From NCBI RefSeq assembly GCF_016097555.1, contig NC_054713.1, forward strand, positions 5,042,125 through 5,106,124: DNA of 64,000 nt. Reading direction: 5' to 3'. The notes beneath the pieces are model-generated. The model saw only the letters and a list, made by a program, of their open reading frames with translations. It did not search any database and had not been told where the DNA came from. Source of the DNA: Gigantopelta aegis. Lineage: Eukaryota; Mollusca; Gastropoda; Neomphalida; Peltospiridae. This document shows, in pieces, positions 3,582 through 63,711 of this stretch (its first letter is position 1; each line of letters begins with the position of its first letter). Made by a program: the position numbers and the translations under genes.

Positions 3582-3707
3582 ATATCACAGAATTTTACGA
3601 ATACTGAATTTTACTCAAAACTTCAATTTTGTGCTGTATTGGCCATTCTCAAAGAGAATGTTACACCCCTGCACCACGGTGAGGTTACAGCACACGCAGG
3701 GGCCATT
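3577..3707 (-). repeat. SINE family E, truncated copy
   Basis: Closely matches the 5' half of fuller copies at 31285-31585 (+) and 46826-47113 (-). Shared landmarks are the block that reads, on this strand, GGCCATTCTCAAAGAGAATG (self-complementary CATTCTC/GAGAATG core) and ACACCCCTGCACCACGGTGA. The copy stops near the DIRS gag start, so this junction defines the DIRS boundary seen here. Confidence 0.65.
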
Positions 3708-7401: not shown

Positions 7402-8899
7402 TACTCTTCAAAAGAAGAAACGCAAAACCACATTGTCGTAACATTTGGAGAATTGATTTAATTATTGAATGGTGAGTCCGATAATTACCAAATGTTGCAG
7501 GATTGTTCACAATTCACTCTAGTCCATTGTGAGTAAGTGATAGGACACACCACCAAGGTCAAGGTCATCTGGAGTCAATACCGGGTGTGGCTTCCGCGTG
7601 TGTTGACAACTGCCTGGCACCGCCTGCCCATTGAAGCAACCAGAGTACGGATGACGTCCCGGGGGATGGTGGCCCACTCGGCCTGCAAGGCTGCTGCCAG
7701 CTCGGGCAGGGTCTGGGGCTGTGGTTGTCGCTGTCGGAGGCGTCGGTCCAACTCGTCCCATAGATGCTCAATTGGGTTCAAATCCGGTGATATCGATGGC
7801 CAAGGAAGGACATTAATGTTGTTGTTCTGTAGGAAAGCCGTTGTGAGACGTGCTGTGTGAGGCCTGGCGTTGTCATGTTGGAACACTGCGTTGGCGTTGG
7901 CCATAACTGGAACGATGTGTGGCCGGAGGATCTGGTCAATGTAGCCCTGTGCATTCAGGTTGCCCTGCACGTGGACCAGGTCAGTTCTGCCAGTGTGTGA
8001 GATGGCTGCCCACACCATGACACTACCCCCGCCGAATCTGTCCACTTCCTGCACGCAGTTTGCCGCATAACGTTCACCACGACGCCTATACACGCGACAT
8101 CTTCCATCATGACGTCGGAGCAGAAATCGGGACTCGTCACTGAACCACACCTGTCTCCATCGCAGTTGAGGCCATTGCCGATGAATCTGGCACCACTGCA
8201 GTCGGAGTCGACGGTGTTGTGGTGTTAAGATGACACCTCGAACTGGACGTCTGGCACGAATTCCTACCTCACGTAGGCGGTTCCGTACGGTCTGGTCGGA
8301 TATCCTGCGCAAACCTGGTATTGCTGCGGCTGTGGAGGTGGCAGTAGTCAATCGTTCCCGAAGGTGGCGTACCCGGATGTAGCGGTCCTGCCCGGGGGTA
8401 GTGACCCGTGGTCGACCGGATCTAGGGAGGTCACGTGTTGATCCATGTTGCTGGTAACGGTCCCACAGTCTGGAGATGGTGCTTGGGGACACATGGAATG
8501 CCCTGGCAACGGCCGTTCTGGATTCGCCTGCGTCTAGTTGGCCGATGGCATTGTTTCTCTGCGGTTCACTGAGACGTGGCATGTCCTGGATTGTCAACTG
8601 TCGGCCAGATACAGAGGCCAGGCAAGCGAACACCCTGCACTTTTATACTGTCGGTGTTCATGTTGCACGTGCAGACAACGCACGTGCAGTGGTGACATGG
8701 TTTGCACGTGGCTGCGTTTTTGCGAATATTCACATTTTGGAACTTTATTGTACAGTAGCTGCGTTTTATCGAATGTAACCGTGGGAATGTGTTTGGGACA
8801 TGCAATGACCTTATATTCACAAAGCATGAACCGGTAGGAAACATAAACTCGGAGTTATAACCCATTTGTACCCTTTTGCGTTTCTTTTTTTGAAGAGTA
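7402..8899 (-). mobile_element. Complete Tc1-like DNA transposon (1498 bp)
   Basis: Ends are inverted repeats of about 28 bp beginning TACTCTTCAAAA and containing GAAACGCAAAA (7402-7429 and 8872-8899, a few mismatches). They are flanked by TA on both sides (7400-7401 and 8900-8901), the target duplication of Tc1/mariner elements. The interior holds one intact transposase gene on the minus strand. Length and layout fit a full-length Tc1 element; the intact gene suggests fairly recent insertion. Confidence 0.92.
7575..8582 (-). CDS. Tc1-like transposase (DD34E)
   Basis: Cut-and-paste transposase that binds the element's inverted repeats and inserts it at TA. The 335-residue protein starts at MPRLSEPQRNN (8582); the frame is open for 17 more codons upstream, but 335-340 aa is the normal Tc1 length. 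The N-terminal helix-turn-helix pair (about residues 5-110) includes STISRLWDRY and a GRPR AT-hook-like linker (56-59). The catalytic core has D149 (VWFSDESRF), D237 (QHDNARPHTA) and E272 (SPDLNPIEHLWDEL), with exactly 34 residues between the second Asp and Glu. The Gly-rich FGGGSVMVWAAI block typical of Tc1 is present. No stop or frameshift is seen, so the enzyme may be functional. Confidence 0.95.
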   Translation of the reverse strand: MPRLSEPQRNNAIGQLDAGESRTAVARAFHVSPSTISRLWDRYQQHGSTRDLPRSGRPRVTTPGQDRYIRVRHLRERLTTATSTAAAIPGLRRISDQTVRNRLREVGIRARRPVRGVILTPQHRRLRLQWCQIHRQWPQLRWRQVWFSDESRFLLRRHDGRCRVYRRRGERYAANCVQEVDRFGGGSVMVWAAISHTGRTDLVHVQGNLNAQGYIDQILRPHIVPVMANANAVFQHDNARPHTARLTTAFLQNNNINVLPWPSISPDLNPIEHLWDELDRRLRQRQPQPQTLPELAAALQAEWATIPRDVIRTLVASMGRRCQAVVNTRGSHTRY

Positions 8900-12910: not shown

Positions 12911-15694
12911 CTTTAACAGATTTCCTGCCATAATGGAATTATACAGTCAAATTCTTGACTTTGAAGGAGACTAGTCCTGGTACACATTGATCATGCCAGC
13001 ATGAATATCTGAAGGCGTGATTTTTTTTTTCTACTATTAAAATATTTAATGACAGCAATGTACTTCCTTTTGACGTTTTCAGTCCACTAAGATGTAAAGC
13101 AATAAATAGGAAACAGGTTTTACACTTAAATTACAATTCAAATTATAATACCGTTATACAGCTATAGGATTGACCCTTCTGGGTGAAGCTTGAAACCTTT
13201 TTTTGATCACATTCATTTAATATACTAGTCATGTCATATTAGGCCAATGAAAACCGTAACCCCCTCCCACTCGCCCGCTCTAAGACGAAACATATACGAT
13301 GGGGTTTTTCTGTCCTACCTTTATATAAATATAAAAACTCTGGTTTTTGCCCCCTACTAGAGACTACTAGAGATTGTGCCCACCCCATCAATATTGCTCC
13401 TACAAGCCTACATAATAATAGGGCAGAGTGATATAAAGCATTGTCGTGTTCATTGGGAAAGACTGCAAATCACTATTTTACATTTACTACCTATTCAATA
13501 TCTATTTTCTTTGTGTACACATAAAAACAAACCCAAACCCCCAGAATATTCAGTGTGTACACATGGAAACTAACCCAAACCCCAGCATATTCACATCAAT
13601 TCTGTTATTCAAACTGAAGGAGCAATTACAGTTAATATTCTTGCGACAATCATTACTAGGGTTTCTTAATCAATTACCATATCTGTAACGCCCAACTTGA
13701 GGTCGTGAAGACTGTCTACGTACGCGTAGAGGGAGCACCCGGTAATGGGTGGCTGCAGGGTCCGTGGGCATAGCAATCAGGCCGACAAGTGAGGTGGCTG
13801 AAGAGACTATTTTTAACAGGGTGGTACATTGTAGATATAGAGCCGCATGGGCAAGGGACGCCTCTGTTAGGAGTAAGGAGAGTATTGGGGACAGCTTAGT
13901 GGTGGGTGGTGCTCATTATGTTGCGATAGCTGCAGATGGTAAATGTAAGAATAGAGGAAGTTACACAACCCAGTCTACACGATGTAGAGTCCCAAACGTT
14001 TTGTCCGGGAAGGGGGTGGGGGAGAGAAACTGGATGTTCAGAGGTAGAGAGTTCTACGGATTCAACTATGTACACCAATCATCAGTGGTGAGTATTGGCC
14101 ACATATCCATGGTGCATGTATATTGTGCTGGGTTGAGTCCAGAGTAGATAGCGGATAAAATATGGTGTTGAAATTAAAACCCAAGACCATTCGGTCAATA
14201 TGGCGGGTCATGAGTTGCGAATGGGGGAATCATTGTAGACCCGGTCCGGTTGACCATGGGTAGGAGGGCTTCGAGAGTCCGTGACATCCATCAAGAACAA
14301 TATATTGTGTGGTCTCAATTTTTAGTGCTTGTGGGGTGACATTAGACTTGCACAAGGGTATGTTGACCATAGGAAAGCACATCTGAGTGGACAAAGTGAC
14401 AGTGGCGGAAGAGGTTGGGTTACCCCCGTATTCGACTGTTCGGTTTAGGTGTATTGCGAGTTGTCTCTTGATTGAGAACATAACATTGTTAGTGATCATG
14501 GTATGCCACACATAGTTCATGCTGCAGGGGACCGAGCGACGATATGTGCGGTCAACCACGGTTATATATTAGTGACCTCAGACCACAATTAATTACACTA
14601 TGTTTTCTCATATAGCCCCATTGGCTGTAGCACTTTTATTAATTTCATCAGGTCATTGGCATTGCACAAGAAACTTTACCTGCCTGGGGCCAATGAACAC
14701 TCAAAAGGATGACCTCTGTTGTCCACCTCTTTTTCACATTATATCAATGTAAACAAACACACGTGGGCTAAGGGACCGAATCACACCCATTTCTATGCAT
14801 TTTATACAAATGTTGCACAACTTCAAGGTGCTGTGGGGGACAGTATGCAGTATCCAGTGTAAACCAAGTGCACATATTCACTAACTGCATCCTCTTCCCT
14901 GTCAAACCCAGTGTAACAATTTAGCATACAAAGCAGCTCCCCGGCCATTAATCACATAACAAAAAAACTAGATTTTCTCGTATTCGTTTCCGTATTTTAA
15001 CCAAATGAGTGGATAACTCTAGTCTGATGCCTATCAGAACAAAATTGTTTTCACCATGACACTCAAACTGACCTATGGTATTTAAATACATATATCAAGT
15101 TGCATACAGGCAATAAAAAGAATATTCAATATCAAATATGGCTGTTGGAGCCTGTGAAATAGGGAACTGCAGGTGTCGGAAAAGGCGACATTCTGCATCA
15201 AATTATTCCAAATAGTGGAATGGTAATTCTGCAATAACTTTAAAGGTTACAGACATTTTTCTGAACAACAAAAATACATTTGCTCCTTATTGTGTTCTCT
15301 GCCATTGAAATATAGCAGTTTGCAGGAATATGATTTTCTTTTGTTGTTTAATTTAATTTAAATTGATACATTTTCAAAAAAGAAAATCCCACAAAGTCTT
15401 CTTTAAAAAAAAAAAAAAGTTAAACTTTAAGACTTACATTTTTGATACTGCACACAGTCAACATATGCCAATTGCAAATTAGTATTACTCGAGTGTCATT
15501 CTGGTGCGGGTAATTAGCAAGGTGCCTGTACACCGTAACAGGTCACACCTGAATGCAGAGAAAATGGCACCAGCCTGCAAAGATGCAGTTGAGAGTATAT
15601 AATGAACAAAAAAACTGTCAACTGCCACTGCATTGAAATGTTTTAATGTATTAAAAATGAAGGTGACATCACACATGGCCTGATATATATAAGT
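12911..15694. other. Non-coding interval
   Basis: Nearly 2.8 kb with no recognisable gene. A 132-codon plus frame at 13749-14147 and a 109-codon minus frame at 14230-14559 lie in a locally less AT-rich patch (13690-14580) but show no family features. The rest is AT-rich, with short poly-A/T tracts near 13021 and 15406. Confidence 0.5.
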
Positions 15695-15751
15695 GTGGAC
15701 ATGCATACCACAATAAGTATTTCACTGTTTTATACACTACAAGTGACATCC

Positions 15752-17625
15752 ATGGAAGGCAATACAAGACGAAATACACAGTTCAAGAAGGGACATACAC
15801 CTTGGAATAAGGGTAAAACTATGCCACATGAACATGCAAGTCCAGAATCGGAGACCGAGAAGTTGCAACCTGTACGCTGGATGAATATAGAGGAGTTTGT
15901 CTTGGTCACGAAGTCGAGTTTCACTTCAGCCACCATATCCACTCCAGATTGCGAAGGTGCGTCACAGCCAGTCCGGCTGCTGCGTCCCATTAAGAGTACA
16001 TGTACTGCATTTGAAATGAAAGAAGAACAACAGTGCAAAGACAAAGAAGGCATGAGAACAATGGACAATGACAGAATGGTAGATGAATGGAATGCAGCTT
16101 TCAAATACCACTCCACAGCTTCCCTCGAGTGCGACGAGCCTGAAATGCAGATATTAAAAGAGGTTAAGTGGGGTCTTTGTTGGAAAATCACATTACACTG
16201 TGTGAAATGTGACTTCACTGCTCCTGAAAGAAAGCTGTACAATGAGGTGAAAACAACTAAACCTGGCCCAAATGCAGCAAAAACTAATGTGGGTCTTGCT
16301 ATCGGTCTCCAAAATATTCCCGTCGGCAATACGAGAGCAAGAGTGCTGTTGGCAAACATGGACATTCCACCACCGTGTCGCAGCAGCATGCAGAGAACAT
16401 CATATAAGGTATCAAAAGCTGTAACAGATCTAAATGAAAAAGATATGGCAGAAAAAGTTGAGTTACTGAAAGACATTAACATGAAATGTGGAAATGAACG
16501 CGATGAAATTAGCATTGCCATGGATGGGAGATACAACTCCACGACAATAACAAGTCGGATGAAACCGGGCTAGAATGCATCACAAGCTATAGGACTTGCA
16601 GTTGAAACAATGACTGGAAGAAAATTCACCATAACTGTCCCGGTGGTCATCCTGACTGCACAGCAAACTTGCCACCATTTGCTCCGCTGTCAGAATACGA
16701 GATGGGAAAAGATATCGGAACAGACATGGCTCTACAAAGTATTCTCATAAGATACGTCGCTACAGATGGAGATTTCAGATCATCTGCTAGAGTTGATAGT
16801 GTTTTGAATCTTCTAGATCCAATGTGGAACGTGCAGCGGTTAGCCGATCCAACCCACTTAGGTCAGAGTCAGTTTCGTAAGTGTTACAAAGTTAACTTTA
16901 GTCCCACTTTAGTGGGCCCACCCGTGAAAAAAAGCGTGAAGCACAGAACATATTCAGCCAGGATATGAAAGCAAGGTGCAGTTTAATTCTTAAGGAACTA
17001 ATGAAACTACATGCTGGTAATATCAGTACACTGAAACGAAACTTACCAAAGGTTCTGTAATCGACACTTTTGTGCTACGGTGGTGACTGTTCAAAGTGTT
17101 CACGGTACTCGGTCGTCTGCATTGGAGGAATAAAGAATAACTGGTAGCATCGATCCATGTTCCTGGGTACACACCGATTCACAGAGCTGAATATGAATGA
17201 AAATGACAAAGTGTTAGTACTGGAACTTCTGAAGATTAAACTTAGTATTTCAGCTGTAGAGCAAATGAAACTGTATACATGCAGACACACAGAAATGTTA
17301 GGCTGCGAATCGTTCTCTCAGTGTTTCCTTACCTAAAAATGTGAACTATTCACGGACGATGACTGGAAGAGCTGCATCCACCATCCACAGGCTGAACAAC
17401 ACCCCGGGAACGTCGACGATAGAAAAATGCAAGTACTGTGGCATCGAACTGTCGGCTCGGGTGAGGCATTCGTTACATCAGATGGACAAAAAGTCAGACT
17501 ATCAAAAAAGATACCAAAAGAATCCACAGGTGGTTAAAAGGCACTTAGTCCAGCATGGAAGTAAAATTAGAGATCCTGAAAGAAAACTGTACAATGAGGT
17601 GAACAGCAATGGCAGCATATTTTAA
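15752..17625 (+). pseudogene. Mutator-like transposase gene, decayed
   Basis: The first frame starts at MEGNTRRNTQFKKGHTPWNK (15752), the N-terminal style of animal Mutator-like transposase-domain proteins. It continues through FTAPERKLYNEV, GLAIGLQNIPVGNTRARV and SIAMDGRYNSTTITSRMKPG. It is cut by TAG at 16571-16573 where the frame otherwise continues with NASQAIGLAVE. After a frame change the homologous reading resumes at 16669-16968 (PPFAPLSEYE, YVATDGDFRS, RLADPTHLGQSQFRKC). It continues in pieces around 17060-17300 (CYGGDCSKC-like, LGTHRFTELNMNENDK) and finally at 17341-17625 (GRAASTIHRLNNTPGTS). The whole family length is still laid out in order, but one stop and several frameshifts make it non-functional. 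PERKLYNEV occurs twice (near 16215 and 17572), suggesting internal patchwork. Confidence 0.75.
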
Positions 17626-17630
17626 ACAGT

Positions 17631-19093
17631 ATTTGATGATCGATCGACTTACTATCTCGATCGATCGACTTTCGAACTCGAGGCTTTGCGTCAAGATAGG
17701 CGACTGGAATACCGTTATAGGTTAAACTATACTATATAAAATCCCACAGACAACAACGTTAACGTTTGTGGTTAAAAACACAATATGCAATATATCAACC
17801 AAACTATGACATTCATCTAGGTAATCATCCAACACATAAATACAGGCCACGACATATACAGGTCATTTTTTTTCTTTTCCCAAATTGGAGAAGAACTATA
17901 GTGTTGTCGGAACAAAAATGATTTTTGTCAATTATTTCTTACATATTAAACAGACAAGTAAATATTTTGTAAATATCTATTTAATTATAGTCTACCTAAT
18001 TTAGCATTTACTTGTTAGGGCTTTCATTGATGTACAAGGTGGTGTTTACTCTTGAAATTAAAAGAAATATGTCAGTAAACTGGTGATTTGTGCACTTTAT
18101 TGGAACAAACTATAACACAGTTTGGTCAACATATGTCAATTTCATTGCTGTTGCAATATGTGAGGAACCCTTTCTGATGATGGTTTACCCATATTCCACT
18201 CCAAAACAAAATATTTGTAGACATTTATAAGTAACTTTTGAGCAAAACTGTCAAGAACCATTTTGAGTTTGTGATCTATTTTCCAGTATTAAAGGTGCTA
18301 TATTGACAGCTATTACAAATCATGTTTTTATTAAATTTTTCTTTAACATTTAAAGACTACACCTTTAACTATATGCCCAAAAATTATTATAGGAAATGAT
18401 TTTATCTACTAGTAGAAAATACATTTTTATTCGAAAATCTTTATCACAAATAGATGCTCATATATAACTTCTGATATAGCACCTTTAAGTGGTTGCAAAT
18501 TTCTACCGTATTTATATTGAATTTATATTCACTAAATATGCTGGTCAAAATTAATAATTTATGATGCAATTCAAAATAATCAGTTATCGTGCAGTTTGAA
18601 ATTAAAAGTTTGTTTAAGGGTAAATGAAATTGACACATAACCATCAAAATGTGTTATAGTCTGTTCCAATAAAGGTCACAAATCTCCTGTTTACTGGCAT
18701 CTTTATTTTAATTTCGAGAGTAAACACCACCTTGTACATCAATGAGAGCCCAAACAAATAAATGCTAAATTAGGTGGAGTATCAATAAATAGGTATTTAC
18801 AAAATATTTCCTTGTCAGTTTAATTTGAAAGAAATAATTGACGAAAATAATTTTTATTCTATTTCCGACACTACTTTAATCCCCATTCCCTTTACCCTAT
18901 GAATTTGGTCGGGATAATGTGAGCAGGTATGTATACACTGTACTAAAAGCCACCCACTGATGCAATAGCTACAACTACGTCTGTATCTGTAGCAGATAGC
19001 ATGATCCATACGTAGCTTTGTTGATATTCATCGAATATGGAGGGGCATGTTGAAGCCCAAAATGTCCCAATTGGGACATTTTTGGCCGGTGCT
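17631..19093 (-). repeat. Dispersed repeat split by a MITE (copy of 32571-33110)
   Basis: The outer parts, 17631-17896 and 18879-19093, together are the reverse complement of 32571-33110. Landmarks are CGATCGATCGACTTTCGAAC at the left and GAATATGGAGGGGCATGTTG with a self-complementary TGTCCCAATTGGGACA at the right. The copy carries a decayed piece of the TDTDVV-type reading described at 32667. The interruption is the element 17899-18876. Confidence 0.85.
17899..18876. mobile_element. Non-autonomous TA-target DNA transposon (978 bp, long TIRs)
   Basis: Inverted repeats of roughly 230 bp (about 17899-18125 and 18650-18876) share TGTACAAGGTGGTGTTTACT and TAATTTAGCATTTA. The ends are flanked by TA (17897-17898, 18877-18878). 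The same host repeat at 32571-33110 lacks the element and reads GAAC-TA-ATCCCC (in reverse complement) at the junction, which is the pre-insertion site. No transposase inside, so it moved in trans. TA duplication fits Tc1/mariner-like or similar enzymes. Confidence 0.9.
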
Positions 19094-32570: not shown

Positions 32571-33110
32571 CTCTTGGCCCAAGAAGATGTCCCATTTGGG
32601 ACATTTTGGGCTTCAATATGCCCCTCCATATTCGATGCATATCAGCAAAGCTACATATGGATCATGATATCTGCTACAGATACTGACGTAGTTGCCTTAG
32701 CTATTGCAACAGTGGGTATACTTAAGAGATGTGAACAGTGGGTGGCTTTTAAGTACAGTGTATACTTACCTGCTCACCTCATCCCGACCAAATTGGTAGG
32801 GCAAAGGGAATGGGGATTAGTTCTTCACCAATTTGAGAAAGGTAAAATGTGGTGGCCTGTATTTATGTGATGGATGAATGTTATAGTTTTGTTGATATAT
32901 TGCATATAGTGTTTTTAACCACAAACGTGGTTTTAACCTATAACGGTATCCCAGTCGCCTATCTTGACGCAAACTCGAGTTCGAAAGTCGATCGATCGAG
33001 ATAGTAAGTCAATCGAGATAGTAAGTCGATCGATCGAGATAGTAAGTCGATCGATCGAGATAGTAAGTCGATCGATCGAGATATTAAATCGATCGATCGA
33101 GAAAAATTAT
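32571..33110 (+). repeat. Dispersed repeat, uninterrupted copy, ending in a CGATCGAT array
   Basis: Reverse-complement match of 17631-17896 plus 18879-19093, without the MITE. It ends with about six ~21-bp units CGATCGATCGAGATAGTAAG (32990-33102); the other copy has only one or two units. Confidence 0.85.
32667..32870 (+). pseudogene. Fragment of a nuclease-like (PIN/XPG-type?) repeat-borne protein
   Basis: The frame reads ISATDTDVVALAIATVGILK, then EQWVAF and YLPAHLIPTKLVGQREWGL. This resembles a protein family multiplied in invertebrate genomes whose members carry a TxDTDVVVLA motif, an ELWVAFG-like strand and later a GCDT motif, as I recall it from PIN-like nuclease folds. Here the GCDT part is missing and the frame ends in TGA at 32868-32870. 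A remnant, not a gene; the family name is tentative. Confidence 0.35.
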
Positions 33111-33326
33111 TTGATGTGATGTCCTTTCCCAGCCACCGTACAATCCAGATATTTCGATTGGTGTGTTGTTTTAATGCAGACAACCATTTGGAATATTTCA
33201 GTTAATATCGATTTCTGGATCATGTATGTAATAGTAGTAAGGGCAGCACTATGGGGTATATCGATTTCACTATTGCATCATCCAAGATGGCCGCCAATCT
33301 GCGTAGTAAAGGGGATGATGCCATAC

Positions 33327-33468
33327 TGACGTCACTAGGCCCCGCCTCCAGAAGGGTGTATACAAGTTTATTTTAAGAACTGACTGATGCAATGCTGACG
33401 TCGCTAGGCCCCGCCTCTAGAAGGGTGTGGGCACATTTATTTTAAGAATTGGTGTAATACTGACGTCA
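33327..33468 (+). promoter_or_regulatory. Tandem CRE/ATF and GC-box motifs in left TIR
   Basis: TGACGTCA at 33327-33334, TGACGTCG at 33396-33403 and TGACGTCA at 33461-33468 lie in ~65-69-bp tandem units; the first two are followed by TAGGCCCCGCCTC. Adenovirus ITRs are known to carry ATF and Sp1 sites, so these may be enhancer/replication-accessory sites; function here is inference. Confidence 0.5.
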
Positions 33469-34687
33469 CTCTTACAGTGTACATTCCAGTTTTTCTTTTA
33501 AGAACCGATGTAATGCTCAATACAGTAGTTTGTCCAAATGTGTATTTGAAGACAATGGTTACTTAAAAGACGTATGTTAATTAATATCCCCCACCCCCTT
33601 TGTTATTATATAGCAGCTTATGAAAGAGACCGTTCATCGCACCCAACATTGAATACAAGTGTACGAGAGAAGAAATAAAGAAAGAATGAAGAGTTGTGAA
33701 ACGTTAATAAATGATACCTTGATATTTGTATTACACATTTATGAATGAACTGAATGCTGGAACGTTCGGAAGTCTTGCCAATGTTGTACTCACCTAAATT
33801 AGAATAATATCCATAGGAAAAATCCACATACTTGTGAGAATTATTTTAGCAACTAATCTTATACGATGTAAGGCCCCACAGTCTGGGAGTCAAATTGAAA
33901 TGTGATATCTGTCAGCTGTGAATCGTTTCGTTGATCCGCATCCCGGTAATCTAAACTAGGTGTGAGCCCACTTGAATTTTGTTTACTCCCCTCCCCCCAC
34001 ACACACACATCTCGATGACGATAAATATATATATATATATACATATATACACAGTGTTGGATGTAGGGAAGGGGGCGGATAGGGCAGGGGGAGAGCGGTG
34101 TGCCCCTAACGTACATATTTATTTATTTGAAATATGATTTTTGTTTCTTAATATAATATATACTTACTTTTGAAGATACAATACATCTTTAAGTATATCC
34201 GTGTAATGCATTTTTAATCCACTCCTCAATACACTGTTTATCACAGTACATGGCATACACTTATGCTAACAGAGAGAAAAATGCAATTGAAACATCCGAT
34301 TCTGAATGGGATCATATTATTACAGTGTTAACGTTCCAAGACGGTCGGTAATGGAGGGGGTGCTAATATACAACGTTTGTATAAGCTGAATGGGTCGTGT
34401 TTTATGATATTCATTACTGCTTGATGCTCTGGCCCTAATATCTGACCACTTAAAGAATTTGAGAACTGATTTACAGAGTGCGACTGAAACCGGATACGCA
34501 CACTTGCGTTTGAACTCTAAACTTTATAAAAACCAGAAGCAATTCTGAAGGGGAGAAAACGAAACGAAAAAAACAAAGACCCTGTGTGCCACATTGTACG
34601 TCCATGTATGTTTCTGCTATGATACAATATAAGTGTATGGGTTTTAACAGGTTATTTCGATATAAAAACCAGAAGTAATATATTGTT

Positions 34688-34718
<31 letters not shown>

Positions 34719-34892
34719 ACACACACACACGCTCACACACACACACACACACGCACACCTCCCCCATGATTTCCCCCCAAGTTGGAATTACTTGTATGAA
34801 AATTTATAATATATTCCGTCAATGAAATCACGTCTTAGTACAATGTTTGGCACCAACATTTCAAATGCAATCTGACTCCATAGTTTGTAAGT

Positions 34893-35090
34893 TTGCGGCG
34901 GGGGCGGCGGGGGCGGCGGCGCGGCGGCGCGGCGGGACGGCTCGGTAAGCGGCGCGCGGCAAGACCGATGGGATGTCGCGGCGGGACGGACGGGGCGGCT
35001 GCACGGAGGGGGACGACGCAATGGCGCGGGCGGGACGGCGGGGGCGGGACGGAGGGGGCGGGTCGTGGCGGAGGCGGAGGCGGCGATCAG
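34893..35090 (+). other. Extremely GC-rich block at the inner end of the TIR
   Basis: Nearly all G/C, with GGCGGGGG, GCGGCGCGGC and GACGG runs. Mirrored at about 37487-37672 with a ~9-bp length difference. Long shadow frames exist on both strands because stop codons are rare in such sequence. Confidence 0.7.
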
Positions 35091-35230
35091 CAAACATACA
35101 TGAGGATGAGTAAAAATAAAAAGAAAGGTAAGAGTCATATCTTGATTTTATTATTTCACAATCAGTGGACATAAGATACGCATATACAGAAGGTCACATT
35201 CAGAGGTCGTACGGCAAAATACAGTTACTG

Positions 35231-35236
35231 TTTATT
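35231..35236 (-). terminator. Polyadenylation signal overlapping the ATPase stop codon
   Basis: On the minus strand AATAAA overlaps the TAA stop (35232-35234). A second AATAAA lies at 35147-35152. Overlap of stop and poly(A) signal is a viral-style economy. Confidence 0.5.
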
Positions 35237-36548
35237 TAGTATAATTGTCATCATCAATGTCCTCATCACCACTGGTAGCATCATCATCATCGTCGTCGGC
35301 ACTGTCTGCTTCGTCCAGATATTCACTGATCCAGGAACGATATTTGTTTAATCTGGAACGAATTTGTGTTCTAACATCTGTCTTCGGATCCACCGACTGT
35401 AGAATGTTTCTCGAGTTCATGCCTTTGTCAAAGTAGTACATGTATGTCAAAACTCGAGAGTACGTTTCTTTAAACAATTTCCATTTTAGAGCCTTCAGTC
35501 GTTTTTCGATGTCATCTTGAGACATATTCCTATTTCGAAAACGTTGTTTCTTGTCTTCAAAATAGTCACGATTTATATCGTATTCACGATCGATCATCTG
35601 ACGTATGCCCTCGTTTTCGAGATCATTAGAGGTCTCTCCTTTCTCCTCGTCATTTTCACATGTATTCAAGCGCAGGTGTCGCTGCAAGTTTCTCCCGTCT
35701 TTAAAGACGACCCCACACGTATCGCAGGACTGCAGTTTCTTGACCTTTTTCAAAAATGGCTCTACATCATCGTCTTCGTCGTCAGCACTTTCGTAGGCGG
35801 GTATGCCTGGTAATTTCCTCTTAAATGCACCGTTTTGCATGATTTTGGATCCACTGTAGTAGCTGCACTCGCAGAGCTGTTTTTCCGATGCTAGTGACAA
35901 GTCGTCTGGAATGTTTGCTGTTGCGTCTACGCTTTTATATCGTTCAGGCACACAGGTTCCCGTCTCTAGGCCGTTAGGCCGAAGGCGTAACATTTCGGGC
36001 GTGGTAGGTTTGAGGTCCACCATGAGGTGTCCAAAGGGCCTACGGGTAGCTCCCTCGAAATATTTCATGAAATGACGAGTGTTTTCCGGATACATCTGTC
36101 GTGCCAATGTCAGAACGTGTTGCTTGTCGATGGGATTGTTGAACAGCGCCAGGTAATGACAATTTCTTCTCTGCGTCGGGTCTTTACTCTGATAGAGATT
36201 CTGATTGATGGCAATCACGGAGAGGTTTCTGTGATGACTCCCTTCTGTAAAAAGGTCCGTGATGCGAGAATCTTTATTGGCCGTAGACATCAGGTCATCT
36301 AACACGATGAGATTTCTAATTCTGGGATCCAAATAATGGTCGTTTTCCAAATTCGTAGGTATGCCTTGGACGAATTCCACTCGAACCGTTGCCCCAATGA
36401 TGTCGTAAAGCGGTTGCCATCTTTTGTAGAGCCAGATAATCCGTTGGGGAGGTGGATTGATTCTATCATTCTTCAGTAGTTTGTACACCAAAAATGTTTT
36501 CCCACACGACGTGGGTCCCGACACGATCATCGTGAAAGGATGTAGCAA
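35232..36548 (-). CDS. A32-like/FtsK-HerA DNA-packaging ATPase with zinc finger and acidic tail
   Basis: In Polintons and related viruses this ATPase pumps the genome into the capsid. Numbered from the leucine codon at 36548 (the open frame runs further upstream, so this is not the true start), residues 11-18 are the Walker A loop GPTSCGKT. Residues 80-85 are Walker B LIVLDD. Residues 103-119 (GSHHRNLSVIAINQNLY) carry the conserved HHRN...QNL block expected of the family. After about residue 200 comes a second region: a C2HC finger (CDTCGVVF...HLRLNTC, 275-297), a charged helical stretch (about 315-410) and an Asp-rich tail (415-434). I do not recognise that second half; it may be an accessory protein fused to the ATPase. 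The frame immediately upstream encodes a Pro-run from a (GGT)n microsatellite and links by a one-base frame difference to the zinc-finger segment at 36550-36849. It lies downstream of the small gene 36916-37239. Confidence 0.85.
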   Translation of the reverse strand: MLHPFTMIVSGPTSCGKTFLVYKLLKNDRINPPPQRIIWLYKRWQPLYDIIGATVRVEFVQGIPTNLENDHYLDPRIRNLIVLDDLMSTANKDSRITDLFTEGSHHRNLSVIAINQNLYQSKDPTQRRNCHYLALFNNPIDKQHVLTLARQMYPENTRHFMKYFEGATRRPFGHLMVDLKPTTPEMLRLRPNGLETGTCVPERYKSVDATANIPDDLSLASEKQLCECSYYSGSKIMQNGAFKRKLPGIPAYESADDEDDDVEPFLKKVKKLQSCDTCGVVFKDGRNLQRHLRLNTCENDEEKGETSNDLENEGIRQMIDREYDINRDYFEDKKQRFRNRNMSQDDIEKRLKALKWKLFKETYSRVLTYMYYFDKGMNSRNILQSVDPKTDVRTQIRSRLNKYRSWISEYLDEADSADDDDDDATSGDEDIDDDNYTK

Positions 36549-36549
36549 T

Positions 36550-36849
36550 TCAAGTGGTGGTGGTGGTGGTGGTGGTGGTGGTGGTGGTGGTGGTGGTGGT
36601 GGTGGTGGTAGTGGTGTGGTGGTGGTGGTGGGGGCAGTAGTGGTGGTGGTGGTGGTGGTGGTGGTGGTGGCAGTAGTGGTGGGGTGGTGGTGGGGGCAGT
36701 AGTGGTGGTGGTGGTGGTGGTGGTGACAGTGGTGGGGGCAGTGGTGGTGGTGGCAGTGGTGGTGGTGGATGACTGGTGTTTAGATGTCGCATCATGGCAT
36801 CTCTCCTGGAAAATATCTTTTCACACTCAGGACACGAGCTCTGATACAT
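36550..36849 (-). pseudogene. N-terminal C2H2 zinc finger of the ATPase, out of frame through a microsatellite
   Basis: ATG at 36849 (MYQSSCPECEKIF) opens a frame with a C2H2 finger (CPEC...HLNTSH), then Pro-, His- and finally Thr-runs as the CCA repeat changes phase. It stops at 36550-36552, one base out of register with the ATPase frame. C2H2 finger plus Pro-rich linker before the ATPase is a layout I associate with invertebrate Polinton-type ATPases, so this is probably the real N terminus of that gene. The offset could be a true inactivating slippage, a consensus-length error in the microsatellite, or programmed shifting. Listed as broken for that reason. Confidence 0.65.
36553..36770 (+). 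repeat. (GGT)n microsatellite within coding sequence
   Basis: About 200 bp of GGT with AGT/GGG interruptions. It encodes homopolymers on the minus strand and is the place where the ATPase frame changes. Confidence 0.95.
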
Positions 36850-36903
36850 TGTGACAGCGCCGCCGATTCAAATTGAAATGGCGATGTCCGTCTTCCGTGG
36901 CTC

Positions 36904-36911
36904 CTTTTATA
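36904..36911 (-). promoter_or_regulatory. TATA box of the ATPase gene
   Basis: TATAAAAG on the minus strand, 55 bp before the ATG at 36849 and only about 5 bp past the stop codon of the upstream gene, implying a separate promoter. Confidence 0.55.
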
Positions 36912-36915
36912 CAGT

Positions 36916-37239
36916 TTAAAATTGCCTCTGCCGTTTCGAGGCGTTACGCTTGTATCCCCCACCACTTTGTTGTTGTTGATTATGTTGCCTTTGGCGTTTG
37001 AGTTGAGCTTTAGCCTGTTCCACCACCTGTTGCGTGGGAGAAGTCATAATGACCGGAGGGTTGTTGTGTGACTCTTCGGGCTTCTTACTCTTCTTGTAAT
37101 CTTTGTCGTACAGTTCCAAGAAACTATCCACGTCCATCCTTTCACCCGTCCGAGGAGAAATCATACATTTGCCTTGAGCTTGCAACTGATAATAGCGAGT
37201 CCATTTCTCGGTGTCGGGAACGTACAGTGTGTAGTTCAT
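36916..37239 (-). CDS. Small basic Gln/Lys-rich protein of the Polinton-type element
   Basis: 107 residues from ATG at 37239 (MNYTLYVPDTEKW) to TAA. The first ~50 residues look folded (aromatic/charged, DVDSFLELYDKDY). The rest is a flexible Pro/Gln linker ending in a basic tail (KAQLKRQRQ, GGGYKRNASKRQRQF) suited to binding DNA or entering the nucleus. I recognise no named family. By position and composition a DNA-condensing core or minor virion protein is possible, but this is inference. The frame stays open upstream into the GC-rich TIR block; that extension lacks protein-like composition, and a TATA box at 37330-37337 sits about 90 bp before this ATG, so the shorter start is preferred. 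The ATPase gene follows 66 bp downstream on the same strand. Confidence 0.65.
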   Translation of the reverse strand: MNYTLYVPDTEKWTRYYQLQAQGKCMISPRTGERMDVDSFLELYDKDYKKSKKPEESHNNPPVIMTSPTQQVVEQAKAQLKRQRQHNQQQQSGGGYKRNASKRQRQF

Positions 37240-37329
37240 GACGATCAGAACCCGAAAGGCATAGGCTTGAGATGAAGTGTCACGACGACGGATCCGGCGA
37301 TAAATGAAGAAGGGTGTCCCGTGGGGCTC

Positions 37330-37337
37330 TTTATATA
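37330..37337 (-). promoter_or_regulatory. TATA box of the small basic gene
   Basis: TATATAAA on the minus strand, about 90 bp before the ATG at 37239. Confidence 0.5.
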
Positions 37338-37469
37338 GACGTGAATGACATCGGTGTTTTCTACTCTGACTGTTAGATAATGATAGTGTGGAAACACAAA
37401 AGAGCGCTCTTGCTGTATATGTCACGACACTCGCTTCTCTTGCTGACGTCCCAGTTTTCAAAAGCAATC

Positions 37470-37845
37470 TCATGTATGTTTGCTGATCGCCGCCTCCGCC
37501 TCCGCCACGACCCGCCCCCTCCGTCCCGCCCCCGCCGTCCCGCCCGCGCCATTGCGTCGTCCCCCTCCGTGCACCCGCCCCGTCCGTCCCGCCGCGACAT
37601 CCCATCGGTCTTGCCGCGCGCCGCTTACCGAGCCGTCCCGCCGCGCCGCCGCGCCGCCGCCCCCGCCGCAAACTTACAAACTATGGAGTCAGATTGCATT
37701 TGAAATGTTGGTGCCAAACATTGTACTAAGACGTGATTTCATTGACGGAATATATTATAAATTTTCATACAAGTAATTCCAACTTGGGGGGAAATCATGG
37801 GGGAGGTGTGCGTGTGTGTGTGTGTGTGAGAGCGTGTGTGTGTGT

Positions 37846-37878
<33 letters not shown>

Positions 37879-39324
37879 AACAATATATTACTTCTGGTTT
37901 TTATATCGAAATAACCTGTTAAAACCCATACACTTATATTGTATCATAGCAGAAACATACATGGACGTACAATGTGGCACACAGGGTCTTTGTTTTGTTT
38001 CGTTTTCTCCCCTTCAGAATTGCTTCTGGTTTTTATAAAGTTTAGAGTTCAAACGCAAGTGTGCGTATCCGGTTTCAGTCGCACTCTGTAAATCAGTTCT
38101 CAAATTCTTTAAGTGGTCAGATATTAGGGCCAGAGCATCAAGCAGTAATGAATATCATAAAACACGACCCATTCAGCTTATACAAACGTTGTATATTAGC
38201 ACCCCCTCCATTACCGACCGTCTTGGAACGTTAACACTGTAATAATATGATCCCATTCAGAATCGGATGTTTCAATTGCATTTTTCTCTCTGTTAGCATA
38301 AGTGTATGCCATGTACTGTGATAAACAGTGTATTGAGGAGTGGATTAAAAATGCATTACACGGATATACTTAAAGATGTATTGTATCTTCAAAAGTAAGT
38401 ATATATTATATTAAGAAACAAAAATCATATTTCAAATAAATAAATATGTACGTTAGGGGCACACCGCTCTCCCCCTGCCCTATCCGCCCCCTTCCCTACA
38501 TCCAACACTGTGTATATATGTATATATATATATATTATCGTCATCGAGATGTGTGTGTGTGGGGAGGGGAGTAAACAAAATTCAAGTGGGCTCACACCTA
38601 GTTTAGATTACCGGGATGCGGATCAACGAAACGATTCACAGCTGACAGATATCACATTTCAATTTGACTCCCAGACTGTGGGGCCTTACATCGTATAAGA
38701 TTAGTTGCTAAAATAATTCTCACAAGTATGTGGATTTTTCCTATGGATATTATTCTAATTTAGGTGAGTACAACATTGGCAAGACTTCCGAACGTTCCAG
38801 CATTCAGTTCATTCATAAATGTGTAATACAAATATCAAGGTATCATTTATTAACGTTTCACAACTCTTCATTCTTTCTTTATTTCTTCTCTCGTACACTT
38901 GTATTCAATGTTGGGTGCGATGAACGGTCTCTTTCATAAGCTGCTATATAATAACAAAGGGGGTGGGGGATATTAATTAACATACGTCTTTTAAGTAACC
39001 ATTGTCTTCAAATACACATTTGGACAAACTACTGTATTGAGCATTACATCGGTTCTTAAAAGAAAAACTGGAATGTACACTGTAAGAGTGACGTCAGTAT
39101 TACACCAATTCTTAAAATAAATGTGCCCACACCCTTCTAGAGGCGGGGCCTAGCGACGTCAGCATTGCATCAGTCAGTTCTTAAAATAAACTTGTATACA
39201 CCCTTCTGGAGGCGGGGCCTAGTGACGTCAGTATGGCATCATCCCCTTTACTACGCAGATTGGCGGCCATCTTGGATGATGCAATAGTGAAATCGATATA
39301 CCCCATAGTGCTGCCCTTACTACT
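37470..39324 (-). repeat. Right terminal inverted repeat of the Polinton-type element
   Basis: Reverse complement of 33233-35104. Small differences include one fewer ~9-bp unit in the GC block and a single C/G change beside GTGCACGGAGG. The (GT)n tract is at about 37809-37878. Confidence 0.95.
39089..39230 (-). promoter_or_regulatory. Tandem CRE/ATF and GC-box motifs in right TIR
   Basis: Mirror of 33327-33468: TGACGTCA at 39089-39096, CGACGTCA at 39154-39161, TGACGTCA at 39223-39230, with GAGGCGGGGCCTA between. Confidence 0.5.
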
Positions 39325-39330
39325 TGTAAT

Positions 39331-46146: not shown

Positions 46147-46290
46147 ATGTATTATAATGTTGGTAAAATCACGTCGCGGTGGGGTGGGGTGGGTGGGGCG
46201 GTTGTTACAGAAACGTTACATAAATTTAGAGGGGGACCCGGGAGTGGTTTAAGCTTTACTAGTAGCCTATAAAAAAAAAAAATTTTGAAT

Positions 46291-46451
46291 TTTATTGGCC
46301 CTTGCAATTTTGAGCATTTGAAATGTTACTAAATACAGCAAAATAACCTTTTAGTCATATTTATTTACGGTTTTATTGGCCCTTGCAATTTTGAGCATTT
46401 GAAATGTTACTAAATACAGCAAAATAACCTTTTAGTCATATTTATTTACGG
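46291..46451 (+). repeat. Exact ~81-bp tandem duplication
   Basis: Two adjacent identical copies of a unit containing TTATTGGCCCTTGCAATTTT and CCTTTTAGTCATATTTATTT. Confidence 0.9.
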
Positions 46452-46825
46452 TAAAATTATTTACGTAAGCAGCCTCAAAATTGCAATCAGTGAAAAATTA
46501 TTAAGTTCAAGCCCTGTTGTTAGTTTCTCTTTCAGTTAATCTACCTCAGCCGCTAATAATTTGTAATTGTTATTTTTATTTATTTATTTCATCATCATCA
46601 TCATCATCATCATTGTTATTATTATTATTTATTTATTATTTATTTATTTATTTATTATAATTAATTTTTTGTTAGTACTGTAGGGACACTATGACGCTAT
46701 TCATATATCTATGGAAAACGTACACAAAAGGGTCCGCTAAATTCATATACTCCCTCACCCCGTCCCTGTTCAGAAAATGCACTAGTATGTATTCCTCCTG
46801 TTCCAGATGGTTCGGTAATATGGAT

Positions 46826-51902: not shown

Positions 51903-54192
51903 GGTTCACTTCCATAAGACAGACGTCCCATAAGGCAGACATGCCATTTGATAAACAAAACTCTTTATTGGGTTATGTAATGTATCCTGTACACCCCTGA
52001 CTGCGTTAATGGTATTGCTCCAATCTGCTCAGCAAGCTATGCTGCAGTGCAACAGCAGTCTTAATTAATGAGCTGATTTCATGCAAACAACAGCGAGAGC
52101 TTAATTGTAATCTTGTAAATGCAATTAATAAATGTAAAGATACAGTGCTTGGTAGATTTTCCACTGCAATATCTCCATTCAATTCATTTCATTTCAGATT
52201 GACAATGTTTTGTTTTTATATCAATGATTACCGCACAGTTATGACAGTACCTATTTAAAAAAATCGTTATATCTACCAATTCCACACAGGCAATTAGGAG
52301 AAGTTAATTGTAATCTGCTAAACAGAATTAACAAATGTAAAGATACTGTGTTTTATGATGTCCGTGTTTTTAGAGTTTAGCAACATCCGTATACAATTCA
52401 TTTCACTTCAGATAGACATTGTTTGTATATCAATGAGTATTATGTCTCTGACGACCAATGTCTTGTATTTCATTGACCATACATTTAAACCATAGCTAAG
52501 CACAGAGATAACATAAAAGTTCTTATATATTAACTGCATGTAGCTACCAAAAAACAGTCATTCAATTTTTTAGTCATGGCTGGTCTTAGAAGGATAGAAT
52601 TTGTTCAATCACAAAAAGGTTCACCACAAGTAATATTGGATGGATTTTTATTTGCAAAGAATCGCACCAGAGGGGAAAGTGTTCACTGGAGATGCGTGAC
52701 AAAAACGTATACCGGGAAATGCACCACTGTCGGCGAATTTGTACGGAACACATCGGAACACAACCATCTTCCAAGTGATCCGAATGTTGCTCGGTTTATC
52801 AGCATACTACGGAAGCGAGTAAGAGAAGAAACAACACCTATGCAGCAAATATACAATGATGAGGTTGCAAAGCAAGCATTAGAAACTGTTCCTCATTTGC
52901 CTTCCTTTCCCAGTATGAGCAGTGCACTGTACAGACAGAGACGAGTTCTGATACCTGCCCTACCACAGACTAGAGCCGATGTCATCCTAGAAGAACCATG
53001 GACACAGACAAATGACGGAAGACGCTACCTGTTATTTAGCGATGGAAATGAAGATAACATGCTTGTGTTCTCTACAGATGAGCAAATCGTAGCTCTACAG
53101 GCTGCAGAATCCATTTTTATGGACGGAACTTTCTCTTCTTGTCCAGCATTGTGGAACCAATTATACATCATCCATGCTATGGACGGAACCACTATGTATC
53201 CCCTTGTGTTTGCTCTTCTTCCCGATAAACAGAGGATAACATACATTAGACTGTTCAGTTTGTTGAAAAATGAAGTTCAACAATTATTAAACCAACCCCT
53301 TGCTCCAAGTAAAGTTCAGACTGATTTTGAGATGGCTGCAATCCAGGCAGTTGAGACGGAGTTTCCGCAAGCTGAAGTAAAAGGGTGCTTTTTTCACTTT
53401 ACACAGGCCATTTGGAGGAAAACTCAAGAACTGGGTCTTGCTGTTTTGTACAAAGAAGATCCAGCTGTACAGACATGGATTCGGAGGGCTGCTGGACTAC
53501 CACTTTTGCCCATTGCACAAGTACAGGATGCATGGTTAGAAGCCATGAATGACGGACCTGATGTTCCACAGGCGGAGGCATTTAATGATTATGTTGTTTT
53601 AACATGGGTAGACGATGACTCCAGATTCCCTTTGATTGTATGGAACCACCATCTGACCACTGGCCCAAGAACAAATAATAATCTGGAGGGATTTCATTCC
53701 AGAATGAATCGTTCAGTCCAAGTTCATCATCCAAACATATACCGATTTGTAGAATTAATCAAAGGAATAGAGACCTCCGAACGTGCTAAATTGAGACAGA
53801 TAAACTTTGGAGCTGCCCCACCACCAAGAAAGAGAGTGTATAAGCAGAATGAAAATAGAATCGTGAGATTGAAGGCGCAACTAACCCTTGAACAGAAAAC
53901 GCCCATTCAGTTCTTGGATGCCGTTGGACATCTGTTAAAATTAGTATAAATTGTGGAACAGACAGAAAATTGAATCGTGAGACATGTTAAAATGTGTATC
54001 CCGGGTATATGTATGTGTATAAATAAATCTAATTTTATATAATTTTGTTATGTGTTTTGTATTTAATTGTATCCGACTATTCCATTATTTACTACATGTA
54101 TTATTCAAGGTAAACGGCAGGTAATTAGTAATGGGTCTTGTGTTGTTTTAACGCGTCTGCGTTATGGGACGTCTGTCTTATGGGAGGACACC
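51903..54192 (+). mobile_element. Complete Mutator-like element (MULE, 2290 bp)
   Basis: The 8-bp duplication GTCCGAGC at 51895-51902 and 54193-54200 flanks ends starting GGT. Inverted repeats of about 38 bp share CCATAAGACAGACGTCCCAT. Both the target duplication length and the FLYWCH/MULE transposase inside fit the Mutator superfamily (Phantom-like branch is possible). It appears to have landed in a pogo-like repeat. Confidence 0.9.
52576..53949 (+). CDS. Mutator-like (FLYWCH + MULE domain) transposase, intact
   Basis: Single-exon 457-aa transposase. Residues ~8-64 form a FLYWCH-type zinc finger (HWRCVTK, C40, C49, HNH at 62-64) for DNA binding. The MULE catalytic core has D183 (FMDGTFSSCP), D250 (VQTDFEMAAI) followed by the C-x2-H pair (GCFFHFTQAIW, 271-274), and E371 in the conserved TNNNLEGFHSRMN. 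The ATG at 52576 is used because the upstream sequence within the element has stops. TAA at 53947-53949 is followed by AATAAA near 54020. No frameshift or stop is seen, so the gene could encode active enzyme. Confidence 0.95.
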   Translation: MAGLRRIEFVQSQKGSPQVILDGFLFAKNRTRGESVHWRCVTKTYTGKCTTVGEFVRNTSEHNHLPSDPNVARFISILRKRVREETTPMQQIYNDEVAKQALETVPHLPSFPSMSSALYRQRRVLIPALPQTRADVILEEPWTQTNDGRRYLLFSDGNEDNMLVFSTDEQIVALQAAESIFMDGTFSSCPALWNQLYIIHAMDGTTMYPLVFALLPDKQRITYIRLFSLLKNEVQQLLNQPLAPSKVQTDFEMAAIQAVETEFPQAEVKGCFFHFTQAIWRKTQELGLAVLYKEDPAVQTWIRRAAGLPLLPIAQVQDAWLEAMNDGPDVPQAEAFNDYVVLTWVDDDSRFPLIVWNHHLTTGPRTNNNLEGFHSRMNRSVQVHHPNIYRFVELIKGIETSERAKLRQINFGAAPPPRKRVYKQNENRIVRLKAQLTLEQKTPIQFLDAVGHLLKLV

Positions 54193-61935: not shown

Positions 61936-63711
61936 AGTTAATTACTGCACTTTCCCCCCTGTTTTTTCAGTGTTGAAATAGACCAACAAGGTCGCCTATT
62001 GCATAAATAGTCTCGCCCGATATTTTTAGAATTTGTATGCTCCCGAATAACGCTATAAAAGGCGAAATGTAATTGGTCGATATTTAAATTGTTATTTATA
62101 GATGAAATGTCACCTGGACATGGGAGTCCACGCAATGCTGTTAGATCTGTACTGTAAAATCCACCCTACTGAAATCTTAAGTGTCTCATTTTCGTAGAAC
62201 TGTCCCTAGCACTGACAGTAAACATACATGTACCATAAGGTTATTCACATATATTTTTAAATAATAATAATAATAATTTCTTTTAATTTGGAAATGTACT
62301 CTGATCATTTAGATAATGGATTAATCCATGATATACATATTTAATTGTCATGTCTACATTAGAAGGTGTTTACTCAGCTGAAATATACATTAGCCAACAT
62401 ATGTGTAATGTAATATAACATATTAAAGGAAAACTACCCTCGGTGGATGATGTCCATGTACCCTCGGTAGTTAAGTATGGTAAAATCCACGCTTTTGAAA
62501 TTTTAAGAGTCACCTTTTCTGAAAACCATTCCTGACATGGATAGTAAATATGTAGTAAGATTATTGACATCTTGTTACAAAAAAAAAATAAAAAAATAAA
62601 AAAATTAAACTTTCACACATGAAAAGAAAATCTACCCTGATCAGTTAAATAATAGGTTAAGTCATCACATTCATATTGAATTGTCATGTCTACATGAGAA
62701 GGTGTTTACGTAGCTGAAATATACATTAGCCAACATATGTGTAATGTAATATAACATTAAAGGAAAACTACCCTCGGTGGATGATGTCCATGTACCCTCG
62801 GTAGTCAAGTATGGTAAAATGCACGCTTTTGAAATTTTAAGAGTCATTTTTTCTAAAAACCACTCCTGACATGGATAGTAAATATGCAGTAAGATTATTG
62901 ACATATTACAATTTTTTTTTTTTAAATTCAAACTTTCACAACATGAAAAGAAAATCTACCCTGATCAGTTAAATAATAGATTAAGCCATCACATTCATAT
63001 TGAATTGTCATGTCTACATTAGACGGTGTTTACGTAGCTGAAATATACATTAGCCAACATATGTGTAATGTAATATAACATATTAAAGGAAAACTACCCT
63101 TGATGGATGATATCCATGTACCTTCGGTAGTTAAGTATGGTAAAATCCATGTTTTTGAAATTTTAAGTCTCCTTTTCTGAAAACCACTCCTGACATGGAT
63201 AGTAAATATGCAGTAAGATTATTGACATCTTGTTACCAAAAAAAAATTACTATTATTATTTTTTTTTTAAATTAAACTTTCACACATGGAAAGAAAATCT
63301 ACCCTGATCAGTTAAATAATAGATTAAGCCATCACATTCATATTGAATTGTCATGTCTACATGAGAAGGTATTTACGTAGCTGAAATATACATTAGCCAA
63401 CATATGTGTAATGTAATATAACATATTAAAGGAAAACTACCCTCGGTGGATGATATCCATGTACCCTCGGTAGTTAAGTACCATAAAATCCACCCTTTTG
63501 AAATGTTATGTCTCTGGTTTTCTGAAAACTACCACTAACATAGGTAGTAAACATACAGTAAGATTATTCACATCTACTTAAAAAGTAATAATATAATTTT
63601 AATGGAAATGTAAATGCAGATATGTAATAAAATGGAAATCTACCCTGATCAGTTAGATAGTTGATGAATAATTCATATTCATATTTAATTTTCAGTGTCT
63701 ACATAAATTGG
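61936..63711 (-). repeat. Large duplicated repeat, inverted copy 2 (tandem ~340-bp array)
   Basis: Four or more units with CTACCCTCGGTGGATGATGT, ATATACATTAGCCAACATAT and CTACCCTGATCAGTTA (about 62150, 62520, 62880, 63240 onward). Inverse of 25265-26400, with one more unit than that copy. Confidence 0.85.

Follow-up and report, generated by a model that had tools for sequence, protein, structure and literature searches.

The window analyzed here is a 64,000-nt stretch of the genome of the gastropod Gigantopelta aegis (contig NC_054713.1, positions 5,042,125 to 5,106,124, forward strand), and it hosts a mini-Polinton of 6,092 bp at 33233-39324. A perfect 6-bp target-site duplication, TGTAAT, flanks the element on the left (33227-33232) and on the right (39325-39330), and its ends, 5'-AGTAGTAAGGGCAGCAC, are of the AG...CT type. 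The terminal inverted repeats, 1,872 bp on the left (33233-35104, forward strand) and 1,856 bp on the right (37469-39324, reverse strand), make up 61% of the element. They differ by 2 substitutions (34735 and 34999) and otherwise in the length of simple-repeat tracts. The 17-base end occurs 2 times in the window, against 0.05 expected at up to 3 mismatches. The 21-base end occurs 13 times genome-wide, against 0 for its reversed control.

Between the repeats lies a core of 2,364 bp (35105-37468), in which both genes run leftward on the reverse strand. The first to be encountered in coding direction is a small basic gene (36919-37239; 107 aa), which in full-length Polintons adjoins a major-capsid-type gene. 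It is followed by an N-terminal C2H2 finger (36760-36849; Pfam zf-C2H2, 1.7e-06), by a (GGT)n tract (36554-36768) that codes for a proline linker in relatives, and by a packaging-type ATPase with a C-terminal C2H2 finger and a helical tail (35232-36551; 439 aa at 35235-36551 plus stop). The ATPase is open in this copy, within an open reading frame (ORF) of 35232-36779 (reverse strand). Upstream of the small gene, 37245-37468 (reverse strand) holds a gene remnant, namely an inner piece and the last 57 codons of what reads like a minor capsid (penton) gene. TATA-like stretches were seen by eye upstream of both genes (~37330 and ~36906), and we make no claim for them; the first falls inside the remnant.

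No PolB frame and no retrovirus-like integrase frame occurs in 33233-39324, and the cores of the other copies described below align to this core. Of the autonomous Polinton set (major and minor capsid genes, protease), the element contains nothing except the remnant. The Rfam search returned nothing, and PHROGs nothing useful. A preliminary description of this DNA had already reported the ends, the duplication, near-identical repeats of ~1.86 kb amounting to 61% of the element, and a 2.4-kb core with an A32-like ATPase and a small basic gene in the absence of polymerase and integrase, all of which our analysis bears out. Its statement that there is no capsid gene was nearly right, the exception being the remnant at 37245-37421 (57 aa, 79% identical to its counterpart in a full-length Polinton), which we read as minor capsid.

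The compact form is a mobile family

The outer 400 bp of the repeat served as a query against the whole assembly (1.149 Gb, 5,216 contigs), with 40 of the 158 candidates scored. This search uncovered at least 46 matches, among which at least 9 inverted pairs span 5.8-6.2 kb and at least 3 more span ~2.2-2.8 kb; the others are ends with no partner among the matches listed. Each of the nine long copies (the window element, L013, and L056-L062) is bounded by a perfect 6-bp duplication, and each duplication is different (TGTAAT, GTGGTG, GGTGAA, AACATT, AATGTG, GTTAAT, TATCAC, CGCAAC, and GGTATC). Within these copies, the two arms diverge by 0.11-1.39%, and the small gene and the ATPase are present in all nine. 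Since at least nine copies sit at separate sites, with their own duplications and the same two genes, it is the compact form itself that moves. The compact form is thus mobilized as such and is non-autonomous. In addition, a compact-type ATPase was found within 7 kb of 10 of 29 end loci.

A collapsed or chimeric assembly at the long inverted repeats, concealing the middle of a full-length element, could in principle produce a similar picture. The long inverted repeats and simple-repeat tracts are of a kind that invites such errors, and runs of N occur in 4 of 30 end loci and 4 of 13 region loci. The same core, at a similar size, nevertheless lies between nine different perfect duplications at nine places, N is absent from L013 and the seven other cores, and a 6,163-bp contig of another data set encodes a protein closely related to the small one. 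We therefore regard an artefact as extremely improbable. The preliminary description had named a unique copy with an unconstrained ATPase and a misassembled interior as outcomes that would speak against it; the element is not unique, and the recurrence of one core at nine independent insertion sites argues against a local misassembly.

All nine copies have an open small gene. The ATPase stretch of the other eight copies differs from that of the window by 0.08-1.62% (1 to 21 substitutions), which is too few for a ratio of non-synonymous to synonymous substitutions (dN/dS), and their left arms differ from that of the window by 0.60-3.63%. In three copies whose ATPase differs from the window's by 0.3% or less, the small gene differs by 2.2-5.0%, and L059 seems to combine two small-gene alleles as a mosaic. 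These patterns point to a core and ends that evolve apart, presumably through recombination between element variants. We also observed an older relative at L016:154-2933 (G000:C1), in which the small gene is broken, with a PC4-like frame (2e-4, below the cut-off) upstream of it, and the ATPase domain is deleted. The dN/dS of the window against L016 is uninformative because L016 is broken.

The ATPase resembles viral packaging motors

In relatives, the protein is built of a C2H2 finger, a proline-rich linker, the ATPase, a second C2H2 finger, and a helical and acidic tail. In L016, one frame spans the finger, the linker, and the start of the ATPase, so a one-protein layout is natural in this genome. 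A protein search with the window ATPase returned 524 matching proteins. Among the best 120 of these, the relatives named to species are bivalves (Pecten, Mizuhopecten, Mytilus, Solemya, Mya, Mercenaria, Ruditapes, and Pinctada), and one match comes from a Sedimenticola metagenome-assembled genome, which is probably contamination. Contigs of prokaryote genomes gave one match, under the title of a Bathymodiolus symbiont; it is probably host DNA and was used for gene order only.

When searched alone, the window ATPase matched Pfam IVa2 and A32 below their cut-offs; in an alignment of 13 members, 9, the window's among them, reached an E value of 0.01 or better against A32. A model of the 200-aa domain reached a predicted local distance difference test score (pLDDT) of 92, and its best PDB match was B204, the packaging ATPase of Sulfolobus turreted icosahedral virus (E 2e-06, template-modeling score 0.64), followed by HerA and RecA-type proteins. 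On the viral side it matched, among others, IVa2, packaging ATPases of the A32 type, Sputnik V3, and an FtsK-like protein of an adintovirus, and it also resembles the packaging ATPase of a Yellowstone Lake virophage. The model of the whole 439-aa protein was weak (pLDDT 59). From the domain model, the window ATPase is predicted to have the P-loop motor fold of A32/FtsK-HerA-type viral packaging ATPases. A sequence search of solved structures gave low-complexity and zinc-finger matches only, and a search of viral contigs with the ATPase and the 13-member alignment gave no confirmed relative. The 17-base end occurs in three viral contigs, but for 17 bases such matches can be due to chance given the size of the collection.

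The ends and the small gene are shared with a full-length Polinton

PolB is plentiful in this genome: with 91 of 211 candidates scored, the search gave at least 124 rows, many of them open frames over 1,000 aa, against 0 in 14 control genomes. One of 29 end loci has a listed PolB locus within 20 kb, where 0.09 would be expected. This locus, on C7 at about 11794467-11811106, is a decayed Polinton of ~16.6 kb that contains PC4 (7e-14), an integrase frame, a minor-capsid-type gene, the small gene, a major-capsid-type gene, a protease-like stretch, an ATPase, and PolB. Its PolB is spread over several frames (1.4e-16) and, like PC4, passes the Pfam cut-off; in the integrase frame, a chromodomain (7.6e-8) passes and rve (4e-6) falls below. 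The right end carries the 21-base terminus, with 88.6% identity to the window repeat over 272 bp and patches of similarity to ~1.7 kb inwards. The left end matches repeat positions 16-219 only, its first 15 bases being absent. The ends of the window element are thus common to an element that encodes PolB and integrase, namely the single decayed C7 copy with its incomplete left terminus, and it is chiefly the PolB-side end of C7 that the long repeat resembles.

A search with the single small-gene sequence found 2 relatives, whereas a 4-sequence profile found 41; among the latter, Mytilus coruscus contributes one, and another, from Gigantopelta, has a BIR domain. The small gene is a regular component of the longer Polintons of this genome, where it adjoins a gene read as major capsid. 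The labels "major" and "minor" capsid rest on sequence reading and gene order; Pfam gave no name to the capsid-type frames at L021:736-1962, L066:1555-2973, and L068:3769-4248. The small gene of the window is 84% identical to that of C7 in protein over 88 residues and 88% in DNA over 254 bp, compared with 53% for the Polinton on C15 and 29% for that on C8. Just upstream of the small gene in C7 lies the gene of which 37245-37421 (reverse strand) is the C-terminal remnant. More specifically, window 37468-36919, in coding direction, matches C7 in two blocks of 55 bp (83.6%) and 429 bp (88.3%), which cover part of the interior of the minor-capsid-type gene, its 3' end, and then the small gene. The finger and linker (36918-36550) have no DNA match in L068, and none of the DNA pieces of the ATPase and small gene match L067.

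The ATPase pieces of C7 are 37-39% identical to the compact ATPase and belong to another lineage, and we therefore rejected the compact element as a simple internal deletion of C7 as far as the ATPase is concerned. As the C7 match is limited to the remnant and the small gene, the small-gene part of the core appears to have arisen by deletion from a C7-like Polinton, which does not hold for the ATPase part. It follows that the ATPase was acquired, or that the true parent is a Polinton not found here. The preliminary description had suggested a satellite-like element replicated and integrated by helper Polintons. This stands insofar as the element is compact, is mobilized as such, and coexists with plentiful PolB and an end-sharing Polinton, the search for which it had proposed; its idea of a retained packaging motor changes, in that the ATPase was not simply left behind when the rest of a helper was deleted.

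A second compact element carries the same ATPase lineage

A second compact element, of 7,883 bp, lies at G000:C9:9880412-9888294 (L063:3913-7201, L069, and L064:1-3365). Its ends, AGTAGTACGTGCG..., are unlike those of the window, and by eye its duplication is ATTATC. It contains the small gene and a zinc-finger ATPase, and to these it adds genes for PC4 (6e-23) and BIR, an apoptosis-inhibitor-type domain (2e-21); no PolB, integrase, protease, or capsid frame was seen among its long frames. Its small gene is 92% identical in protein, over 89 residues, to that of the C15 Polinton, which has, besides an ATPase and capsid-type genes, a 1,614-aa PolB frame and a protease (Peptidase_C5, 1e-5). The C15 stretches contained no match to the C9 ends.

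Over the domain, the C9 ATPase is 85% identical to that of the window, compared with 40% for C15 and 44% for C8. A tree of 124 ATPase domains places the ATPases of the window and C9 in one clade with the metagenome protein P0001 (support 100/99), and C15 and C8 fall outside it on long branches. The compact ATPase differs in lineage from those of C7, C15, and C8, the three longer elements read. Related ATPases are numerous in the genome: with 96 of 1,930 candidates scored, we found at least 20 loci at 92% identity or more to the window's, one at 85%, and at least 75 at 71-75%, the C9 locus being counted in the last class, where 66 of 75 have no internal stop. We considered the C9 ends as a marker of this class and rejected them, given that they occur at two places in the genome only (7.9 kb and 1.2 kb); the other loci at 71-75% therefore have other or diverged ends. 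Among the 96 ATPase and 85 PolB loci listed, one ATPase lies within 20 kb of PolB, against 0.28 expected, a hint that most ATPase loci of the window's type are without PolB.

The C8 Polinton, an observation in its own right, runs from L020:2392 to L021:5260 (G000:C8) over ~10 kb and has zinc-finger ATPase, protease-like, major-capsid-type, small, and integrase-like frames; no PolB frame was seen in it. Its inverted repeats are 94% identical over 278 bp, and it adjoins a 1.8-kb derivative of the window family. A full-length element with window-type ends had been considered at this place and was rejected, as the copy is that derivative beside another Polinton with its own inverted repeats. The derivative (G000:C8:80562408-80564226; duplication GGTGGG by eye) is one of three short elements with Polinton-type ends that resemble miniature inverted-repeat transposable elements (MITEs), the others being a 148-bp element (G000:C10:5307438-5307585; duplication CATATG) and a 1.2-kb element (G000:C8:11456015-11457210).

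Neighboring features of the window

Three other frames of the window were assigned by eye: 594-3584 (reverse strand) is presumably a retroelement, 7575-8642 (reverse strand) a Tc1/mariner-type transposase, and 52534-53949 (forward strand) what we take to be a MULE-type transposase. The frame at 15647-16573 (forward strand) is similar to that at L022:2417-4287 (reverse strand), both reading MEGNTRR.TQFKKGH.PWNKG..., and the presence of similar frames at two genome places suggests a repeated element or gene family. Arrays of 21-bp tandem repeats rich in GATCGATC lie at 32985-33102 and 17638-17681, one of them ~120 bp to the left of the insertion. Other tandem arrays occur at 62292-63573 (343-bp units, 3.9 copies) and 46290-46452 (81-bp units, 2 identical copies).

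Discussion

Our data describe a 6-kb element that spreads without polymerase or integrase of its own, and its dependence on helper Polintons is well supported. We consider it probable that this is a satellite-type, non-autonomous Polinton family in which a helper-derived virion gene has been joined to a packaging ATPase of another lineage. The helper PolB would copy the satellite from its ends, and the helper integrase would insert it. In the particle, helper capsid proteins would enclose the satellite DNA. The small protein, which is like the helper's own and is encoded there beside a capsid-type gene, might fit the satellite to the helper capsid, and the satellite's zinc-finger ATPase may favor the loading of satellite DNA; this hijack of packaging is what we infer from the gene content. 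As to origin, a C7-like Polinton may have lost nearly everything by deletion, and its PolB-side end region may have come to both ends, giving the long repeats. The ATPase gene could have been gained by recombination or inherited from a helper not found here.

A passive history would account for the same element differently. A full-length Polinton with a zinc-finger ATPase would have lost its middle, the two genes would be bystanders, and helpers would act on the ends alone. Several observations favor such a history and weigh against a role for the genes. The capsid-gene remnant has an inner gap. The ATPase stretch is complete and open in six of the nine copies and damaged in the other three: one has a 225-bp deletion that leaves it open, and two, which are also those with the most diverged arms, have stops and frame changes. 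The finger of the window copy (ATG at 36849) is out of frame with its ATPase, the (GGT)n tract standing between the two frames. The existence of gene-less short derivatives suggests that no gene is needed in cis, if the 148-bp and 1.8-kb elements moved at that size. Zinc-finger ATPases are likewise found in fuller elements, namely beside PolB in L004, in the C8 element, and in P0050, which has a protease-like end (one aligned member has Peptidase_C5), so a full-length parent of the window ATPase may exist. Moreover, genomic context was read for 9 of the 20 loci at 92% or more and, in the 71-75% class, for C9 alone, and the one close pair of ATPase and PolB (C15:9470963 and C15:9483684, 11.5 kb apart) is known by position alone.

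Nevertheless, we consider a passive deletion family rather unlikely. The one end-sharing full-length element read has a small gene 84% identical in protein to the compact one, yet an ATPase of another lineage, and one ATPase clade extends across two compact elements that differ in their ends and in their small genes. The small gene is intact in every long copy as well, though most copies are young. A helper-like small gene combined with a non-helper ATPase in two elements with different ends favors a role over chance retention.

Host benefit offers a further explanation, in which copies are kept because the ATPase or the small protein interferes with helper Polintons. A slightly different packaging ATPase and a virion-type protein could poison helper assembly, and in protists Polinton-like viruses reportedly lower giant-virus progeny (PMC12220804). 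The recent insertions at no fewer than nine sites, with their low arm divergence, look like selfish spread instead, and we judge a domesticated, defense-like function improbable. A more ambitious version of the satellite reading is plausible, albeit on balance short of probable: the compact Polintons would be a eukaryotic counterpart of capsid-hijacking phage satellites, united by one zinc-finger ATPase, each with ends and a small virion-type protein derived from its own helper, and loading themselves into helper capsids.

In the open full-text literature on Polintons, Mavericks, and adintoviruses, subscription papers and repeat libraries being outside its scope, none of the titles and abstract openings listed names such a satellite; passages of Polinton-related papers were also consulted (PMC4028283, PMC11071308, PMC11071296, PMC6431247, and PMC9341512).

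If the packaging role is true, satellites with their own packaging motor exist in eukaryotes too, particle formation by animal Polintons becomes testable through them, and short Polintons, usually set aside as incomplete, merit a second look. Integrated Polintons are numerous in animals, and we know of no animal satellite that parasitizes them.

Polintons or Mavericks (polintoviruses, adintoviruses) are usually 15-20 kb long. The window family is like them in its AG...CT ends, 6-bp duplication, terminal inverted repeats, and packaging ATPase, and it has its ends, capsid-gene remnant, and small gene in common with a full-length Polinton of the same genome. It is unlike them in its size of 6 kb, in its lack of frames for PolB, integrase, and protease, in having no more than a remnant of a capsid gene, and in an ATPase lineage that is not that of C7. 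Like non-autonomous DNA transposons, whether deletion derivatives or MITEs, the family keeps its ends, is presumably moved in trans, and has derivatives of 148 bp, 1.2 kb, and 1.8 kb, but it retains two genes, one of which has a source other than the full-length, end-sharing element read. With virophages and Polinton-like viruses it has in common the dependence on another virus-like element, and its ATPase domain model resembles Sputnik V3 and a packaging ATPase of a Yellowstone Lake virophage. Virophages, however, have their own capsid genes (PMC11071308), whereas the window family has a remnant only. Capsid-hijacking phage satellites, such as phage-inducible chromosomal islands and P4-like elements, have small genomes without capsid genes and a packaging function of their own. 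The window family would work alike, its packaging being deduced from its genes, but it does not share descent with them, and it would bring to the helper capsid a whole ATPase motor where the phage satellites bring a small terminase.

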